Shown in pieces: positions 43,972-51,575 of a stretch of DNA of 64,000 bases; positions within the stretch are counted from its first letter, which is position 1, and each line of letters begins with the position of its first letter. The notes below the pieces were generated by a model. It saw only the letters and a program-made list of their open reading frames with translations, ran no database searches and was not told where the DNA came from. Both the position numbers and the translations under genes were made by a program. Where the stretch lies: NCBI GenBank assembly GCA_021819205.1, contig JAKARV010000002.1:1-64000 (forward strand), given 5' to 3'. This DNA is from Actinomycetes bacterium (GTDB lineage: Bacteria; Actinomycetota; Acidimicrobiia; Acidimicrobiales; Acidimicrobiaceae).

Positions 43972-45072
43972 GTGAGATCTTCAAGGCGCTATCGCGCAAG
44001 ACGGAGGTTTGCGGTTCTCGGTTTGGTGGCCGGGATGGTGATTGCCGCGACTCTCGTGGTTGAGTTCAGGGCTCCGAACATCGCTGCTCACCGGTCCCGT
44101 TCGGCGCAGAAGCCGAAGAGGGTGACCCGGCAACCGAAGCCGGTAAGGCCCGCTTCTTCGCAAGTACTGCCCCAGATTCAAGGTGTCGGCGAACTCTCCG
44201 TTCAAGTGAGTGAACCGGGAAGGTTGATGTGTCCACCGTCGACGGGCACGTGCTTGCCGCGAAGCTTTCTGCTCCACGTCTACTACCCGAGCACATTTTC
44301 GACTGGTGGAACTCCGCTCGTTGGGGCACCGGTTGCGACCGCTCGCGACCCATACCCAGCCATTGTTTTTGCTACCGGCTTCAATATGGACCCCAGTGGA
44401 TACCTTCAACTTATCGATGGTTGGGTGCAGGCTGGTTACGTGGTGGCTGCCCCTCGCTTCCCGCTGGATTCGGCTTGGGCGTTGAACCATTACGGTGTCA
44501 ACCTCTCCAACGTGAGGCTTGCCGACGCTTTCGAGTCCGACATGCTCAACGAACCTGGCGATATGGAGGCTGCCGCGAACGAGCTCTCGGCGCTCAACTC
44601 CCAACCAAGTTCGGCTTTGCATGGGAAGGTGAATACCGCAGAGGTGGCCGCCGCGGGTCAGAGCGATGGCGGTGACGCTGCCTTGGCTCTGGTCGACAAC
44701 ACCTGTTGCAGGGATACGGCGATCAAGGCGGCAATGATCTTGTCGGGGGCCGAGTTCTCCCCATACGGCGGAGCTTACTTCGGCACATCGATTCCACTGC
44801 TGATCGTCCAGGGAACGGCGGATCCGATTAACCCCCCCGGGCTTTCAGCGGCGATCTACCAGGGGGCCCAGCCGCCAAAATACCTGATTTGGCTGCAAGG
44901 GGCGGATCATCTCGTCGGTTACACCTCTTTCAACCCATATGAGCAGGTGGTGATGAATGCTTCACTAGCGTTTCTCGCCACCTACTTGCGTGGAGAGCCG
45001 CTCTCGGTGTCTAAGTTGGCAGTGGTGGGAGACGTGAACCAAGTGGCGAGCGAGCAGTACGATGCGGGCTAA
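43972..45072 (+). CDS. membrane-anchored or secreted alpha/beta hydrolase
   Basis: The N-terminus is very basic, then has a hydrophobic segment (FAVLGLVAGMVIAATLVV), so it is a signal anchor or signal peptide. The C-terminal part is an alpha/beta-hydrolase: nucleophile elbow AAGQSDGGDAAL, Asp in GTADPINPP and His in GADHLVGY, with a possible oxyanion region FATGFNMDPSG. The fold resembles dienelactone hydrolase/PET-hydrolase-like esterases. Substrate unknown. GTG 43972 gives 366 residues; starts further upstream are possible. It overlaps the downstream amidase gene by 11 bases. Confidence 0.75.
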   Translation: MRSSRRYRARRRFAVLGLVAGMVIAATLVVEFRAPNIAAHRSRSAQKPKRVTRQPKPVRPASSQVLPQIQGVGELSVQVSEPGRLMCPPSTGTCLPRSFLLHVYYPSTFSTGGTPLVGAPVATARDPYPAIVFATGFNMDPSGYLQLIDGWVQAGYVVAAPRFPLDSAWALNHYGVNLSNVRLADAFESDMLNEPGDMEAAANELSALNSQPSSALHGKVNTAEVAAAGQSDGGDAALALVDNTCCRDTAIKAAMILSGAEFSPYGGAYFGTSIPLLIVQGTADPINPPGLSAAIYQGAQPPKYLIWLQGADHLVGYTSFNPYEQVVMNASLAFLATYLRGEPLSVSKLAVVGDVNQVASEQYDAG

Positions 45073-46195
45073 CCCGTGGATGATCGGGCCTGTTGTCGAT
45101 GTCGGCGGTGCCGGGCCCTCGGTTGTGGTGAAGGATCTAATCGATATTGCTGGCACCAGGACCACCGCGGGATCGCCCTCGCTCGCCGCGATTGCGCCGG
45201 TCGCTCTAGAGGACGCGCCGGTCGTTCGTAGGATTAAGGCCGCGGGAGGCCGGATAGTTGCAAAATCGAACCTCGTAGAACTGGCCTATGGGTCGCAAGG
45301 GATCAACCCGGGATTCGGTACCCCGCAAAACCCTCGGTCTCCGGAACTGATTCCCGGCGGTTCTTCCTCGGGATCGGCGGTGGCGGTTGGCATTGGCGCG
45401 GTCGATGTTGGGATCGGTACCGATACCGGTGGTTCGATTCGGATCCCCGCAGCGTGTTGCGGAGTATACGGTTTAAAAACCACTCATGGATCGATGCCTA
45501 TGGATGGATGCTGGCCGCTTGCGCCCAGTCTTGACACCATCGGGCCGCTCGCAGCCACCTTGAAAATGCTCGCGGAAGGGTACCGTTTGTTGGGAGGGGA
45601 TCCCTGGACTGGGGTAGCGCCGGAAGCAATTCGGGTTTTGTCCAGCGGTGATGGGCGTTTTGACGCGGCAGTTGAACGGATAGCAGCGTCACTCGGGCGG
45701 CCGGTGGAGAAGATAGAACTCGATCTTGGCGAGCTGTGGCGCCTGGGCGACACGGTCATGGGGTTCGAGGCAGTTCGTTCCGCGGCTCGGCTCGACTGGA
45801 GCCGTCTCGACCCCAAGGTCGGCAGCCGACTCCTCCAGTCGCAGAAGATATCACCGTCGGAGTATCTCGACGCCCTTGGGTCGAGGCGTGGCTTTCAAGA
45901 GAGTTTCAGCCGGTTGCTGGATGACGGACGGGCGGTCCTGCTTCTCCCCACCATACCGTTTGCGATTCCTGCACTTGCCGAAGCCTACGACCGCTGGCTC
46001 AATGTGCTTACCCTTCCCTTCAATTACCTCGGAGTACCGGCGCTCTCGTTTCCGGTCACCGACCCTGGCGGTCTGGCCAACGGCGAGGGTGAGGAGGGCC
46101 TGGTCCCACTCTCGGTGCAGCTGGTGGGCGTAGCCGGAGGCGAAGCGTCGCTGATCTCGCTGGCTAGCGAGATCGAGGCAGTCGGCAACGCTTGA
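45062..46195 (+). CDS. amidase signature family hydrolase
   Basis: The Ser-cisSer-Lys amidase motif is visible: VVKDLIDIAG (Lys), GGSSSGSAVAVGIG (cis-Ser) and GIGTDTGGSIRIPAACCGV (nucleophile Ser) followed by GLKTTHGS. Amidase-signature enzymes hydrolyse amides, including indole acetamide, malonamide and aryl amides; the substrate is unknown here. At 377 residues it is a bit shorter than the usual 450-500, ending with a normal C-terminal PLSVQLVGVAGGEASLISLA. It overlaps the hydrolase gene. Confidence 0.85.
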   Translation: MRANPWMIGPVVDVGGAGPSVVVKDLIDIAGTRTTAGSPSLAAIAPVALEDAPVVRRIKAAGGRIVAKSNLVELAYGSQGINPGFGTPQNPRSPELIPGGSSSGSAVAVGIGAVDVGIGTDTGGSIRIPAACCGVYGLKTTHGSMPMDGCWPLAPSLDTIGPLAATLKMLAEGYRLLGGDPWTGVAPEAIRVLSSGDGRFDAAVERIAASLGRPVEKIELDLGELWRLGDTVMGFEAVRSAARLDWSRLDPKVGSRLLQSQKISPSEYLDALGSRRGFQESFSRLLDDGRAVLLLPTIPFAIPALAEAYDRWLNVLTLPFNYLGVPALSFPVTDPGGLANGEGEEGLVPLSVQLVGVAGGEASLISLASEIEAVGNA

Positions 46196-46220
46196 ACGGT
46201 CCGTTAGCTGCTTAACTAGC

Positions 46221-46248
46221 TTGCTTTAATCCGTTCCTGGTGTTAAAC
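46221..46248 (+). promoter_or_regulatory. candidate promoter before the small MftB-like gene
   Basis: TTGCTT (46221-46226), a 16-base spacer and TTAAAC (46243-46248) resemble a sigma-70 promoter. It lies about 80 bases before the small ORF and 25 bases after the amidase stop. Unverified. Confidence 0.3.
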
Positions 46249-46327
46249 TGCTCTGCCTAGACTGCGGGGGTTCCTGCCGAGATGGCGATGTTGGCGCAAG
46301 TCCACCGTGGCAGTCGGGAGCATGGTG

Positions 46328-46600
46328 ATGGCTGTTGCTGCAGAAAACGCGTCTGAAGGCCCTGGAGAGCACTTGGTGCGCTACCGCTGGCGGGAGACGG
46401 TTGACCTTCAACCCAGTCGGTTTGGGTTTAACTTGTACGACCGGGAGGGTCGGAGAATCGTCTCGGTTCAGGGTCGGAACGCGGATCTGGTGCGTTCCTT
46501 GGCCACGAAAGATGTGGTGGTGTCCAGCAGAGACCCCGGCTTGTTCGAGCTTTTCGACTTTCTGATCGACTTCGGCCTGGTCGAGCCGGTCGACTGGTAG
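46328..46600 (+). CDS. 90-residue protein resembling mycofactocin MftB (PqqD/RRE-like)
   Basis: The central stretch, ETVDLQPSRFGFNLYDREGR followed by R-I-V-S-V, shows the pattern V-x-L-x-P-x-x-F-G-x-x-x-Y-x(4)-R-R that I associate with the N-terminal part of MftB, the RiPP-recognition-element (RRE/PqqD-like) partner in mycofactocin synthesis. It ends with LFELFDFLIDFGLVEP, like the last helix of a winged-helix RRE. The resemblance is from memory and needs a profile search. It is preceded by GGGAG seven bases upstream (ATG 46328; ATG 46322 is close). It is not next to any mftA or radical SAM gene in the window. MftE-like and aminotransferase genes lie within 4.5 kb. Confidence 0.5.
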   Translation: MAVAAENASEGPGEHLVRYRWRETVDLQPSRFGFNLYDREGRRIVSVQGRNADLVRSLATKDVVVSSRDPGLFELFDFLIDFGLVEPVDW

Positions 46601-46795
46601 CCAAGTGCGGCCGGTGATCGTTCCGAGCGCCACCTTTGCGCTGTTGGCGGGGGGTGCTTCTTAACGGCGCTTTGAGAGCGCTGAGCGCGGCGACTCCGGT
46701 CTGGTGCGGCGAAGTTCGTTGAGCCATCGAGCAAGTTGCGCCGGGCAAATGTTAAAGATTGCGATGCTGGCAGTCGAGGGCGTCTATGGAGCGCG

Positions 46796-48460
46796 ATGGA
46801 AGATAAGTGTCAACATGCCGACTATACAGTGGAAGGAGCCCTAGGGGCGATCTTGGGCGCTGTTCGAAGCTTTGCCTCCGAGACGAAACAGGATGAGTTG
46901 CTCGATCGGGTTTGCGACACCACCTGCGACGCTCTCGACTTTGGCGCGGTGTCGATAGCGCTTCTTGATGAGGACGAGTGCTTCCGGATCAAGGCGCGGA
47001 CGGATCGCAGGAAGGGCGTTGACTGGACGCCGGAGAGCGAGTTCCGGCTTCCGCTCGCTGACCTCAATATTTTGTTCAAGATTGGCACCAAGATTGGGGA
47101 CGCCATTTGGGTCGATGGACGCAATGAGATGGTCACTCGGCTGGCGAAGCGGGGTTCGGTGCTGGAGAAGCCCGTATCGATACAGCCCTCCGCATGGCTC
47201 TCGACTTCGATGCTGATCGTTCCATTCAACCGCTCTCCTGAAGGACTTTTTGGACTCCTTCTCCCCGAGGACCCATACGACGGGAGAGCGCCGTCGTCAC
47301 TTCTCGCCCTGCTGCTTTCGACTTTGGCGAGCTTTGCCTCCATTTCGATCCAGCTTCTCGAGAAGCGGAGCTACGGAGATGCCCAGCAGCGCATCCTCTA
47401 CGCTCAGCGCCTGCGAATTGCTCGGGTATACCGAGCCTCCGGGGCGGTTCAGCGAGCCGGACAGCTGCAGGAGATGCTCCAAGCTACCGCGGATGCGGTG
47501 ACCGGGGCCGGAGGTTTCCGGAAGGCGGTTATTTACTTGCGGGAAGGGGAGCTTCTCGAACTCAGGGCGACTTCGGGCGTCACCGCCGCCGAGGCGGGCG
47601 ATCTCGACTCGGGTTCTCCGGTTTCGCTTGCCCACTTTGCGGGCGTTATGCAACCGCAGATGCGGATTTCCCGGTCCTACCTCTTTGACAAGCACCGCTA
47701 CTCAATCCCCAGGGGATTGGAGCCCTTCATCGTTGCTCTGGGGAGGATGGCGGGGACCGGGGAACCTTTTGGCGTGGATGAAATTTTGACCGTCCCAATC
47801 ACGGACCAGCAGAAACTGCTGGGAGTGATCTCGGTGGCTGGACCGGATGATGGGGAGTCACCGAATCTCGAGCAGATTCAAGCGCTGGAGTTCTTTGCCG
47901 ATCAGGCGGGCACTGCGGTATCGCAGATGGTGTACTTTGACGAACTTAAGTCGCTGGCCGAGCGCGATCCGCTCACCGGGTTGTTCAACCGGAGGAGTTT
48001 CTGGAACATTGTCGACCAGGTCGTCTCGTCGGCGAGAGGCGCCGGACTGTCAGTCGCGGCGTTGTTTGTCGATATCGATCACTTCAAGGCTGTCAACGAC
48101 GAGCTGGGCCACGCGGTTGGCGACTCGGTGATCAAAGAGGTCGCGAAGGCTCTCTCCGGGCGCCTCCGCTCCCAAGACGTAATCGCCCGTTTTGGCGGTG
48201 AGGAGTTCGTGGTATTGGTGATGGGCGTCGACGTCTCCCAAGCCACGTCTCTTGCCGAGTCGCTAAGGATGGTCGTCTCCGCGGTGGAGGTCGCCGACCT
48301 GACCGGTGCGTTGACGATCTCGGTTGGGGTTGCCGTGGCCGAGTCGAAGAGCGCCGTCTTCTCGGCGCACACCCTAGTCGAGGAGCTGATACGGAAAGCC
48401 GACGCCGCGCTCTACCGAGCCAAGGTATTCGGCCGCAACCGGGTAGAGGTGTACCGCTAG
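46796..48460 (+). CDS. GAF-GAF-GGDEF diguanylate cyclase
   Basis: Two GAF-like sensory domains fill residues about 10-200 and 215-375. The C-terminal GGDEF domain contains DPLTGLFNRRSFW, FVDIDHFKAVNDELGHAVGD and the active-site GGEEF (within RFGGEEFVVL). An RSQD five residues upstream of GGEEF forms a product-inhibition I-site. It should make c-di-GMP. The partner phosphodiesterase is not in the window. ATG 46796 with a GGAG is preferred; a TTG at 46736 is possible. It is cytoplasmic: no transmembrane segment is seen. Confidence 0.85.
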   Translation: MEDKCQHADYTVEGALGAILGAVRSFASETKQDELLDRVCDTTCDALDFGAVSIALLDEDECFRIKARTDRRKGVDWTPESEFRLPLADLNILFKIGTKIGDAIWVDGRNEMVTRLAKRGSVLEKPVSIQPSAWLSTSMLIVPFNRSPEGLFGLLLPEDPYDGRAPSSLLALLLSTLASFASISIQLLEKRSYGDAQQRILYAQRLRIARVYRASGAVQRAGQLQEMLQATADAVTGAGGFRKAVIYLREGELLELRATSGVTAAEAGDLDSGSPVSLAHFAGVMQPQMRISRSYLFDKHRYSIPRGLEPFIVALGRMAGTGEPFGVDEILTVPITDQQKLLGVISVAGPDDGESPNLEQIQALEFFADQAGTAVSQMVYFDELKSLAERDPLTGLFNRRSFWNIVDQVVSSARGAGLSVAALFVDIDHFKAVNDELGHAVGDSVIKEVAKALSGRLRSQDVIARFGGEEFVVLVMGVDVSQATSLAESLRMVVSAVEVADLTGALTISVGVAVAESKSAVFSAHTLVEELIRKADAALYRAKVFGRNRVEVYR

Positions 48461-48647
48461 CCGGCTTCGGCAACTTGGCATCTCGGTGTCTTGCGGTATC
48501 GATGCTTTTCCCGCCCGAGGCCGTTGGTCAGGCCGGGAACGGTTCGCGGCTCGAGCGCCGTCGCGGCTTTTACCGGCAAAGACCGGTGGGTTCGCCAGGT
48601 TTGAGGTGCAGTGGCGGTAGGGTGATTCGAGAGTGGAAGGATCGAAG

Positions 48648-49904
48648 ATGAGTCACTTCTGGCACCCCTTTGGCCAGCTTTATCAGTCGGCAACGAGCCC
48701 AATAATCTTCGAACGTGGCGAAGGAATCTACGTCTTCGACTCGGACGGTAAGCGCTACATCGATGCAACCGCCGCGTTGTGGTATGCGAATGTTGGCCAT
48801 GGGAGGCAGGAGATCGCCGAGGCGATCTTTGCCCAGGCACGCTCTTTGGCCGGGTACTCCGCTTTCGGCAACTTCTCCAACCAGCCCGCCGAAGAGCTTG
48901 CCGAGTTCCTTTCGGCGCGGTCGCCAATGCCGGACACTGAGATCTTTTTCGTTCTTGGTGGTGGTGATGCGGTGGAGACCGCCGCCAAGCTGGCCAGGCG
49001 ATACTTCTACGAAATCGGGGAGCAAAATCGCACAATTTTGATCTCTCGGACTAACGGGTACCACGGCACTTGGGGTTTTGGCACATCGGTTAGCGGCATT
49101 CCCGTCAATCGGGCGGGCTTTGGCGAGTTGGTTCCGGACACCATTCAAGTTCAGTGGGACGACTCAGAGGCTGTCGAAGAGGCTATAGTCCGTTCTGGCC
49201 CGGAGCGCATCGCCGCGCTTATCGTCGAGCCGGTCGTTGGAGCAGGGGGGGTTTACCCACCGCCAAGCGGTTATCTGGAGGCAGTCTCGGGGATATGCGC
49301 GCGCCATGGGGTGCTCCTCGTCGTAGACTCGGTGATCTGCGGGTTTGGACGTTTGGGGAGTTGGTACGGGATAGAGCGTTTCGGCGTGGTTCCCGATATG
49401 GTAACTTTTGCAAAAGGAGTCACCAGCGGTTACCTTCCCCTTGGAGGGGTGGCGGTCTCGGGGCGAGTGGCGGAGCCATTCAAGACGCCGGGCAGCCCGG
49501 TATTCCGCCACGGTCCAACCTACGGCGGTCACCCCACTTGTGCGGCGGCCGGAGTCGCCAACTGCAAGATCTTGGAGGAGGAACACATTCTGGAGCGGGG
49601 GTCATTGCTGGAGGGCGAGCTTCTGGAGTCCCTGTTACCCGCCCAGGAGTCTCCGCTGGTAGCGGGTGTCCGGGGTGGAACCGGGCTGTTGGCGGCGGTT
49701 GAGCTTGGCCAGGCTACCTTGGACGATCATCCTGGCGTTCTCGACCGGCTTGCCGGTTTTGCCCGGGAGCGTGGGATAATAACCAGGGTGCTTGGAAGAG
49801 GAGTCGCGGTATCTCCGCCGCTGATAATCGAGCCGGAGGAGATCCAGATGATTGGCGGAGGCCTCATAGAGGCGCTAAACGACCTTGAGAAATCGCTGAA
49901 ATAG
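48648..49904 (+). CDS. class III (omega-type) aminotransferase
   Basis: A PLP fold type I enzyme. The PLP Lys is in VTFAKGVTSGYLPLGG; a GGGDAVETAAKLARRYF phosphate block and NGYHGTWG are present. The motif that binds the pyridine nitrogen reads VVDSVICGFGRLG, where most class III enzymes have DEV; the Asp is kept. The start ATG 48648 has GGAAGG seven bases upstream. Donor and acceptor are unknown. It sits between the diguanylate cyclase and the convergent creatininase-family gene. Confidence 0.85.
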   Translation: MSHFWHPFGQLYQSATSPIIFERGEGIYVFDSDGKRYIDATAALWYANVGHGRQEIAEAIFAQARSLAGYSAFGNFSNQPAEELAEFLSARSPMPDTEIFFVLGGGDAVETAAKLARRYFYEIGEQNRTILISRTNGYHGTWGFGTSVSGIPVNRAGFGELVPDTIQVQWDDSEAVEEAIVRSGPERIAALIVEPVVGAGGVYPPPSGYLEAVSGICARHGVLLVVDSVICGFGRLGSWYGIERFGVVPDMVTFAKGVTSGYLPLGGVAVSGRVAEPFKTPGSPVFRHGPTYGGHPTCAAAGVANCKILEEEHILERGSLLEGELLESLLPAQESPLVAGVRGGTGLLAAVELGQATLDDHPGVLDRLAGFARERGIITRVLGRGVAVSPPLIIEPEEIQMIGGGLIEALNDLEKSLK

Positions 49905-49920
49905 ACGGGTCTTCGGCCAG

Positions 49921-50655
49921 CTACCGGTTGCGAAAGAACTCGTCAAAGGAGCAGACAAGGTCGTCTGTGAAGGCTGCCATTATCGCTAAGCCCTCCTCTT
50001 GATTGGCGCCCAGGGGAAACTCGTTCTGTTCCAATGCGAGATCGGTACTTGCGGCTTCGTTGAGAAGTATGGTTGGCGACCTTGTGTTGCCGTTGTGCGA
50101 GGAGGAATCCGGGGCGTTTACGGCCTCGGGAGCAATTGCGAGTAGCATCGACGTCTCCGTCCGGCCGGCGTGGAAGTCTGGCGACCACATTCCCACCGCC
50201 GTCTCCGGCAGCTCCCATCGGTTGGCGGCATCCATCAGAACGTGCATGCGCGGTATCCAAAACGGGATGCGGGCTTCGATCAGGGCGTTCAGGTTCTCTC
50301 CATGGGCGCTCACGGCTATGGCGTTCATCCCCTGGGGGAGGCACTTCGTCAAGGATCTCAGAGTATTGGCCATGAGCTCCTCGGTGATTGCAAAGGTGCC
50401 CGCAACGTTGCGGGCTTCCAGCGATACCGAGTAGGGGATAGTGGGTCCAACCACCACCGAGTCGGGACGCTGCCTCGCAAGCTCCTCGACCAATGCGTTG
50501 GTTATTATCGTGTCCGTGGTGACCGGAAGGTGCACGCCGTGGTTCTCTACCGACCCCACCGGGATCACAAAGACTTTCGGCGCTTCCAGGTGCTCCACAA
50601 AGATGTGGTTGGTCCGATCGAGATTCAAATCTGCTTCCCTTGGCCAAGTTATCAA
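49921..50655 (-). CDS. creatininase-family amidohydrolase, MftE-like
   Basis: The metal ligands of the family are preserved: VGSVENHGVHLPVTTDT (Glu, His, Asp), AHGENLNAL (His) and HAGRTETSMLLAI (Glu). This 244-residue enzyme resembles MftE, the creatininase-like peptidase that cleaves the MftC-processed precursor in mycofactocin synthesis, in the HAGxTETS-x-LL segment and length. However it also deviates: GHGGN is AHGEN and the GSxEQHGPH loop reads GSVENHGVH. It could instead be a generic creatinine amidohydrolase-family enzyme. TTG 50655 is the start used. Convergent with the aminotransferase gene. Confidence 0.7.
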   Translation of the reverse strand: MITWPREADLNLDRTNHIFVEHLEAPKVFVIPVGSVENHGVHLPVTTDTIITNALVEELARQRPDSVVVGPTIPYSVSLEARNVAGTFAITEELMANTLRSLTKCLPQGMNAIAVSAHGENLNALIEARIPFWIPRMHVLMDAANRWELPETAVGMWSPDFHAGRTETSMLLAIAPEAVNAPDSSSHNGNTRSPTILLNEAASTDLALEQNEFPLGANQEEGLAIMAAFTDDLVCSFDEFFRNR

Positions 50656-51065
50656 CCTGCCGCCACGGATACGCTAAGGCGGTTGCCCTGCCGAAGCTGC
50701 GGCACGGTAAAAGTGTAGTTCAGCTTTTTGGCGCTCTTCCAGCCTAATCAAGGTTTTGCACTAAGCAACCTTGGGCTTGGTTGCGGGATGCAGCTGGCAA
50801 AACCCCGTAAGAGTACTCGCGCGGCGGTTGGGCTGGCGCCAGGCGGGGCGGCTTTTCCAGCTGATTGTAGTTGAGTTGTTCTGGCAAAGCGGCGAGGTTG
50901 GGGTGCCGCTTTGCATGGCAGCTGTCTCAAGAGACGTGGTGGTGCCGTCGGCTACCGTTGCGCTAAGCTAAGAAGTCATCCGTTTGGGGGACTGTGATTC
51001 AGTTCCGCTGGAGTTTCGCGAAGCTGGGCGTCTTTTGGCGGTGCTTGCCACCGGATAGCGAGGTT
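50656..51065. other. intergenic region with two hairpins
   Basis: About 410 bases without a convincing gene. A hairpin at 50694-50726 (AAGCTG paired with CAGCTT, inner CAC/GTG) is followed by a T run and looks like a plus-strand terminator, although no plus-strand gene precedes it nearby. A second hairpin at 50765-50784 (GCAACC/GGTTGC, eight-base loop) has no T run. The divergent promoters for the creatininase-like and histidine-phosphatase genes should be here. Confidence 0.4.
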
Positions 51066-51575
51066 GTGTTGGAGATTATCTTGGTTCGGCACGCTCACAC
51101 CGGCAGCCCTCTTCCTGGCAGTGCCGACCTCGGGAGGCATCTCAGTGATGTCGGCCAGGAGGCGGGGGACCGGCTTGCGGCTGAGCTGCTTGCGCACTTG
51201 CCTGCGAGAATCATCTCCTCGCCCTACCTCCGCTGCATCGAGACGATCCAGCCTTTAGCGAGCAAGCTGGACCGGATTGTCGAGGTCGACGAGCGCCTTG
51301 GCCAGGAGGCATCCGACCGGGAGGTTCAGGATTTTGCCAACCTACTGCTCTCCCAGTCGGACTCGGTCGTAGTGGCGAGCCACGGTCCAACAATTCGCCG
51401 GCTGGCGCTCGCCATCCTCGATCCTCAGGGAATTGTCTTAGACGGCGAGGCGATCTCCCTGGTAAAGGCTTCAGCGTTGATTTTTGAGATCGACGGCGAG
51501 ACCTACCCCAGAATGGTCTCATCGGCGTCGAGGATGGGGTACCCAGGGTACGAGAAAACCCGGCTGTTTGGTTGA
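51066..51575 (+). CDS. histidine phosphatase superfamily protein (SixA-like)
   Basis: A 169-residue branch-1 histidine phosphatase. The phosphoacceptor motif is LVRHAHTG (RH at the N-terminus) and the second His is in VVVASHGPTIRRLA. Size and lack of the alpha-helical subdomain resemble SixA-type phosphohistidine phosphatases. Substrate unknown. The open frame begins 72 bases earlier, but GTG 51066 leaves the RHA block close to the N-terminus as in relatives. Upstream of xseA, 49 bases away. Confidence 0.75.
   Translation: MLEIILVRHAHTGSPLPGSADLGRHLSDVGQEAGDRLAAELLAHLPARIISSPYLRCIETIQPLASKLDRIVEVDERLGQEASDREVQDFANLLLSQSDSVVVASHGPTIRRLALAILDPQGIVLDGEAISLVKASALIFEIDGETYPRMVSSASRMGYPGYEKTRLFG

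Follow-up and report, generated by a model that had tools for sequence, protein, structure and literature searches.

Does a locus that encodes likely relatives of two mycofactocin proteins, MftB and MftE, while showing neither the precursor MftA nor the maturase MftC, belong to a scattered but working pathway, to the remains of one, or to something new? The question arises in the window, by which we mean the whole 64,000-nucleotide stretch analysed here from an actinomycete of the family Acidimicrobiaceae. In mycofactocin biosynthesis MftB is a chaperone that binds MftA, and MftE releases the cyclised Val-Tyr terminus once MftC has done its work (PMC11778925). MftB has been described as having no detectable homologs beyond mycofactocin neighbourhoods, and as being always accompanied by MftC and MftF or else absent (PMC3023750). 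Our literature search, in which subscription journals were thinly covered, returned no paper on mycofactocin in Acidimicrobiia. We consider it very likely that the window holds a reduced mycofactocin locus in which the cofactor is no longer made and the MftB- and MftE-derived proteins are kept, probably for another role.

The window genome (G000) was compared with its congener G224, the two together forming genus g1 (assembly completeness 92.6% and 85%, both incomplete), with the sister genus g5, and with genus g2, which includes G032 (one contig, 99% complete). The family set comprised 42 genomes in 8 genera, and an order-level set 198 genomes.

Layout of the locus and comparison with the sister genus

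The gene positions given in the first-pass annotation (amidase, 90-residue ORF, GGDEF protein, aminotransferase and convergent creatininase) were all confirmed, and the locus reads as follows:

45062-46195, + strand: amidase (PF01425), collinear in g1, g2 and g5; left border common with the intact locus
46196-46327, 132 bp: junction at the site of ALDH and mftA in g5; remnant of neither
46316-46320, + strand: Shine-Dalgarno-like GGGAG, 7 nt upstream of the ATG at 46328; block conserved in G224
46328-46600, + strand: P0001, 90-aa diverged MftB-like (predicted RRE-type) protein in the mftB slot (profile, hhalign, AlphaFold2, omega)
46601-46735, 135 bp: junction at the site of mftC in g5; no remnant
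46736-48460, + strand: GAF-GGDEF diguanylate cyclase (TIGR00254, E=3e-49)
48633-49904, + strand: class III aminotransferase (PF00202)
49905-49920, 16 bp: junction at the site of the mycofactocin-type SDR in g5; no remnant
49921-50655, - strand: creatininase-family amidohydrolase, apparently MftE-derived (TIGR03964 below cut-off; tree; omega)
50994-51575, + strand: histidine phosphatase (PF00300), right border, followed by xseA and xseB as in the intact locus

In six g5 genomes (loci L038 and L065-L069) the order is bpa-rpiB-hydrolase-amidase-ALDH-mftA-mftB-mftC-GGDEF-aminotransferase-SDR(-)-mftE(-)-phosphatase-xseA-xseB, which L038 shows only from ALDH on, as its contig starts there, and L065 only through mftE; some g5 loci have an additional GGDEF gene next in this order to the right of mftE. 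That these are mycofactocin loci is seen from G148, where MftB scores 45 bits over a curated cut-off of 33, MftC 492 over 265 and MftE 186 over 172, and where MftA ends in IDGICGVY. The SDR of G148 has the mycofactocin-coupled SDR as its best model (221 of 250 bits, just under the cut-off), and its ALDH is of the 3,4-dehydroadipyl-CoA semialdehyde dehydrogenase type.

The window and G224, identical to each other in gene order at the locus, have the g5 order and borders, with the GGDEF and aminotransferase genes inside, minus ALDH, mftA, mftC and the mycofactocin-type SDR, and with P0001 in the mftB slot. Compared with the mycofactocin cluster mftABCDEF (TIGR03962/03964/03965/03966/03967/03969), the MftB-like and MftE-derived proteins hold the same positions here. 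This gene-by-gene collinearity with a complete locus backs the earlier suggestion of a remnant and demonstrates both the descent of the locus and its losses. The sequence of events would have been the removal, in the g1 lineage, of mftA, mftC and two probable users of the cofactor (the mycofactocin-type SDR and ALDH), with no pseudogenes left, while P0001 and the creatininase stayed in place beside the GGDEF protein and the aminotransferase. No pseudogene debris of ALDH, mftC or SDR was found in the window junctions, and non-functional DNA therefore seems to be quickly removed here.

Further reduction is seen in g2, in which G032 retains the amidase, GGDEF and aminotransferase genes while P0001 and MftE are absent. 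In the aminotransferase tree g2 falls outside g1 and g5 (92/92, not a strong split), and the losses in g1 and g2 thus look independent. The GGDEF protein of the window is 50-52% identical to its collinear g5 copies. Its position directly 3' of mftC in intact g5 loci (for example L066:8320-10008) suggests that in g5 the use of mycofactocin is tied to c-di-GMP.

Across the family, a class III aminotransferase lies beside or near mftABC in g3, g4, g5 and g136, so that it is mft-linked in most of the family; a search for the same link outside the family revealed none. As an observation in its own right, in loci of g3, g4, g135 and g136 (L037, L039, L070-L073) the genes after mftABC encode two OYE-type mycofactocin enzymes (TIGR03996/TIGR03997 for those of G174) and ETF alpha-like and FixC-like proteins; beyond these, G174 has a small ferredoxin-like ORF, ETF beta and mftE (L037:5952-17946). 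These ETF and FixC names are putative and our own reading, and the neighbours suggest that mycofactocin-linked enzymes may be connected to quinones; no paper came up in a literature search that combined mycofactocin and electron transfer flavoprotein. A g5 paralog of the lldD/MftD type (L171-L175) seemed to carry a TAG in frame; this was dismissed as a recoding signal, as there was no stop within the aligned region.

Origin of the two retained proteins

The MftB-like pattern that had drawn attention to the 90-residue ORF (VDLQPSRFGFNLYDREGRR) is present letter for letter at 46328-46600 on the + strand. P0001 is a real gene, with a 65% identical ortholog at the same place in G224 and an omega of 0.23 in frame, compared with 1.2-1.7 in shifted frames. 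Standard searches did not identify it: searches of NCBIfam and Pfam gave no match at E-values up to 10, TIGR03967, the published model for MftB, matched neither P0001 nor any other protein of the window genome, and a scan of the genome contigs with P0001 found no relative. Over the order, MftB exceeds the cut-off in 74 of the 198 genomes, and the four matches from the same family are low (37-46 bits). A profile was therefore built from g5 MftBs only and applied to the 2154 six-frame ORFs of five loci, where the G224 ortholog ranked first (E=2.4e-4) and P0001 second (E=1.3e-3), the next ORF having E=0.91. All 2000 shuffles of P0001 scored below P0001 itself, and hhalign of P0001 plus its G224 ortholog against 13 MftBs gave a probability of 93% (E=3e-7). 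Since this closer profile and synteny do detect the protein, the TIGR03967 miss was too insensitive a test, and the resemblance to MftB, which the first-pass annotation had called its weak link, stands above chance. Homology and the slot, which in g5 lies between mftA and mftC, both point to MftB, whereas the TIGR03967 match is lacking; the divergence of P0001 puts it out of reach of the public model, so that its orthology rests on the custom profile and position. In the alignment FG and Y are retained, whereas the conserved R-x-E-x-FG motif has lost its R and E and the winged-helix part is shortened.

Structure prediction is in line with this assignment. An AlphaFold2 model of P0001 built with MftBs (pLDDT 81) had the RREs 6jx3, 8t19 and 5v1v as its top three structural neighbours, with probabilities of 0.94-0.99 and E-values of 0.27-0.5. 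A control model from the two g1 sequences only (pLDDT 74) had the RREs 8t19 and 6jx3 as its top two, with weak scores. The predicted fold is thus RRE-like, with weak scores, as all E-values of the fold matches are at least 0.27. In predicted fold and size P0001 resembles the stand-alone RREs (PqqD-like proteins, the RRE of PbtF, lasso B1), which include its nearest solved structures, and differs from them in that neither a precursor peptide nor an enzyme to modify one is known for it. RREs located away from RiPP clusters have been described before and may be vestigial (PMC7470986). A resemblance of residues 37-80 to Ika8/Ika4, from a sequence search of the PDB, was dropped as an artefact of repeat summation, because no single stretch of the top match reached the E-value alone.

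It could still be argued that P0001 is an orphan protein unrelated to MftB whose motif is a chance resemblance, and the silence of Pfam, NCBIfam and TIGR03967 in this genome fits such a view. We regard it as very improbable, because P0001 and its ortholog are the top two of all ORFs tested, P0001 outscores every shuffle and sits in the right slot of a collinear locus, and RRE-type structural neighbours are found even when no MftB sequences are in the alignment.

For the creatininase, the expected MftE-like segment is present as HAGRTETSMLL, and the best model is MftE (TIGR03964), with 107 bits against a cut-off of 172 and hence below it. A tree of 23 creatininases from the family places both g1 proteins inside the g5 MftE clade (99/96) and puts the second creatininases of G000, G224, G210, G216 and G199 in a separate clade. 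The second creatininase of the window genome (C20:38035-38718, L076) scores 131 bits to the MftE model and belongs to this non-MftE clade. The window protein has the fold family and metal-ligand motifs of PF02633 and groups with MftE, apart from that second copy. The aligned metal-ligand motifs E-x-H, TD, HG and TET are kept, and both g1 creatininases have a shortened GVxGDPxGAN loop. Judged from tree and motifs, the enzyme appears to be MftE-derived. Two results had been named beforehand as telling against a mycofactocin origin, namely a 90-residue protein missed by the standard profiles and a creatininase clustering with non-MftE enzymes; the former was found, the latter clearly was not.

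The missing mycofactocin genes

MftA (TIGR03969) had no match at E<=10 in G000 or G224, and no GVY-ending C-terminal motif occurs in the window. The best MftC scores were 82 bits in G000 and 84 in G224 against a cut-off of 265, and partial matches like that of G000 also occur in relatives that have a true MftC. In the family profile search MftC exceeded the cut-off in 27 of 42 genomes, all within g3, g4, g5, g135 and g136, and in none of g1 (G000, G224), g2 or g137; MftA matches have largely the same distribution. MftD reached 224 bits in G000 against a cut-off of 471 and was under the cut-off in G224 and G032 as well, compared with 543-615 bits, over the cut-off, in 7/7 g5 genomes. MftF gave 64 of 280 bits in G000, although no genome of the family reaches that cut-off. 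Compared with the mycofactocin cluster, then, the window genome is without mftA, mftC, mftD and an over-threshold mftF, the SDR of the locus is lost, and the two remaining proteins are under the curated cut-offs or unmatched. From the genes seen, the cell would be unable to make mycofactocin.

One of the readings first considered had been a scattered but working system, whose MftA and MftC, or proteins replacing them, would lie elsewhere in the genome. The family does show some scattering, as g5 MftD lies away from the mft locus on another contig. Against this reading, MftA and MftC are over the cut-off in neither g1 genome, and the chance that a gene such as mftC is present yet missed in both assemblies is about 1% (0.074 x 0.15, from completeness). 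Moreover, MftD is missing, the locus has lost its mycofactocin-type SDR, and the radical SAM protein that comes closest to a stand-in for MftC, on contig C61, is a TIGR04053 protein (444 bits, over the cut-off of 395). We hold such a system to be hardly credible. Separately, a radical SAM protein of g137 (L074:6356-7471 and L075:7083-8189) reaches 127-140 bits to MftC (cut-off 265) and has an SDR nearby, at loci with no recognisable MftA, MftB or MftE; it is possibly a distinct relative of MftC.

The other early suggestion was a new RRE-dependent pathway, in which P0001 would hand some short peptide to an enzyme, be it the aminotransferase or a different one, and the product would be released by the creatininase. 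The RRE-like predicted fold of P0001 and its retention together with a peptidase-family enzyme are compatible with this, and daptides show that class III aminotransferases are able to act in peptide pathways, although the window protein scores only 244 bits against the cut-off of 450 of the daptide aminotransferase model NF041821. No conserved short peptide was found at 46.1-46.8 or 50.6-51.1 kb, and candidates for a hidden MftA in the intergenic stretches proved to be known genes and frames overlapping them. In addition, g2 keeps the aminotransferase without P0001 and the creatininase, and relatives of the aminotransferase outside the family are not mft-linked. With no precursor or maturase in view and no positive evidence for it, a pathway of this kind seems quite improbable.

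Selection on the retained genes and their possible roles

In the pairwise comparison of G000 with G224 (Nei-Gojobori, dS near 1), omega came to 0.23 in P0001 and 0.22 in the creatininase; the GGDEF protein, XseA and the aminotransferase had 0.19, 0.16 and 0.05, respectively. Both P0001 and the creatininase, like their neighbours, are under purifying selection. Because G000 and G224 have the same losses, their divergence by parsimony postdates the loss, a single common loss in g1 being assumed from two genomes, and the selection measured between them is selection after the losses. An acceleration of P0001 or MftE following the loss was also considered and discarded, as stem lengths are unexceptional compared with XseA or the phosphatase.

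These values bear on the view that P0001 and the creatininase are functionless leftovers on their way out, a process completed in g2, where both genes are gone. The shortened GVxGDPxGAN loop of the creatininase in both g1 genomes and the loss of R and E from the MftB motif of P0001 would agree with decay. On the other hand, the reading frames are intact in two species whose P0001 proteins are 65% identical, omega of about 0.22 is like that of working neighbours, the other lost genes left no debris, and the metal-ligand motifs of the creatininase are retained. Pure relics are therefore unlikely in our judgement.

As both proteins are kept in place and still selected, they probably have another job. 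The known substrates, MftA for MftB and MftC-modified MftA for MftE, are not at hand, as precursor and maturase were not found in G000. The creatininase-fold enzyme may still hydrolyse an amide, a lactam or a short peptide, plausibly as a step beside the amidase and the aminotransferase, and P0001 may be a small peptide- or protein-binding adaptor for the creatininase or the c-di-GMP protein. We put this division of labour, with the creatininase acting on another amide or short peptide and P0001 as a binding adaptor, forward tentatively. A more specific scheme, in which the helpers were rewired after cofactor loss so that the orphan RRE captures another peptide or protein and the MftE-derived amidohydrolase trims it, possibly under c-di-GMP control, is a rather remote prospect.

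Partial sets of mycofactocin genes are not without precedent. In Herbiconiux sp. L3-i23, MftG, mftD and mftF remain, along with a possible mftA, whereas mftB, mftC and mftE have been lost (PMC11778925). As in the window genome, part of the set was kept after the loss of mftC, but the genes retained and lost are roughly the opposite. Here an MftB-like and an MftE-derived protein persist without precursor or maturase, against the earlier description of MftB. A class III aminotransferase is linked to mycofactocin loci of the family, joined in g5 by a diguanylate cyclase. The related genera form a series from a complete locus (g5) through a partial one (g1) to none (g2), and this series provides a natural setting for asking what the helper proteins do alone and how a RiPP cofactor pathway gets dismantled.
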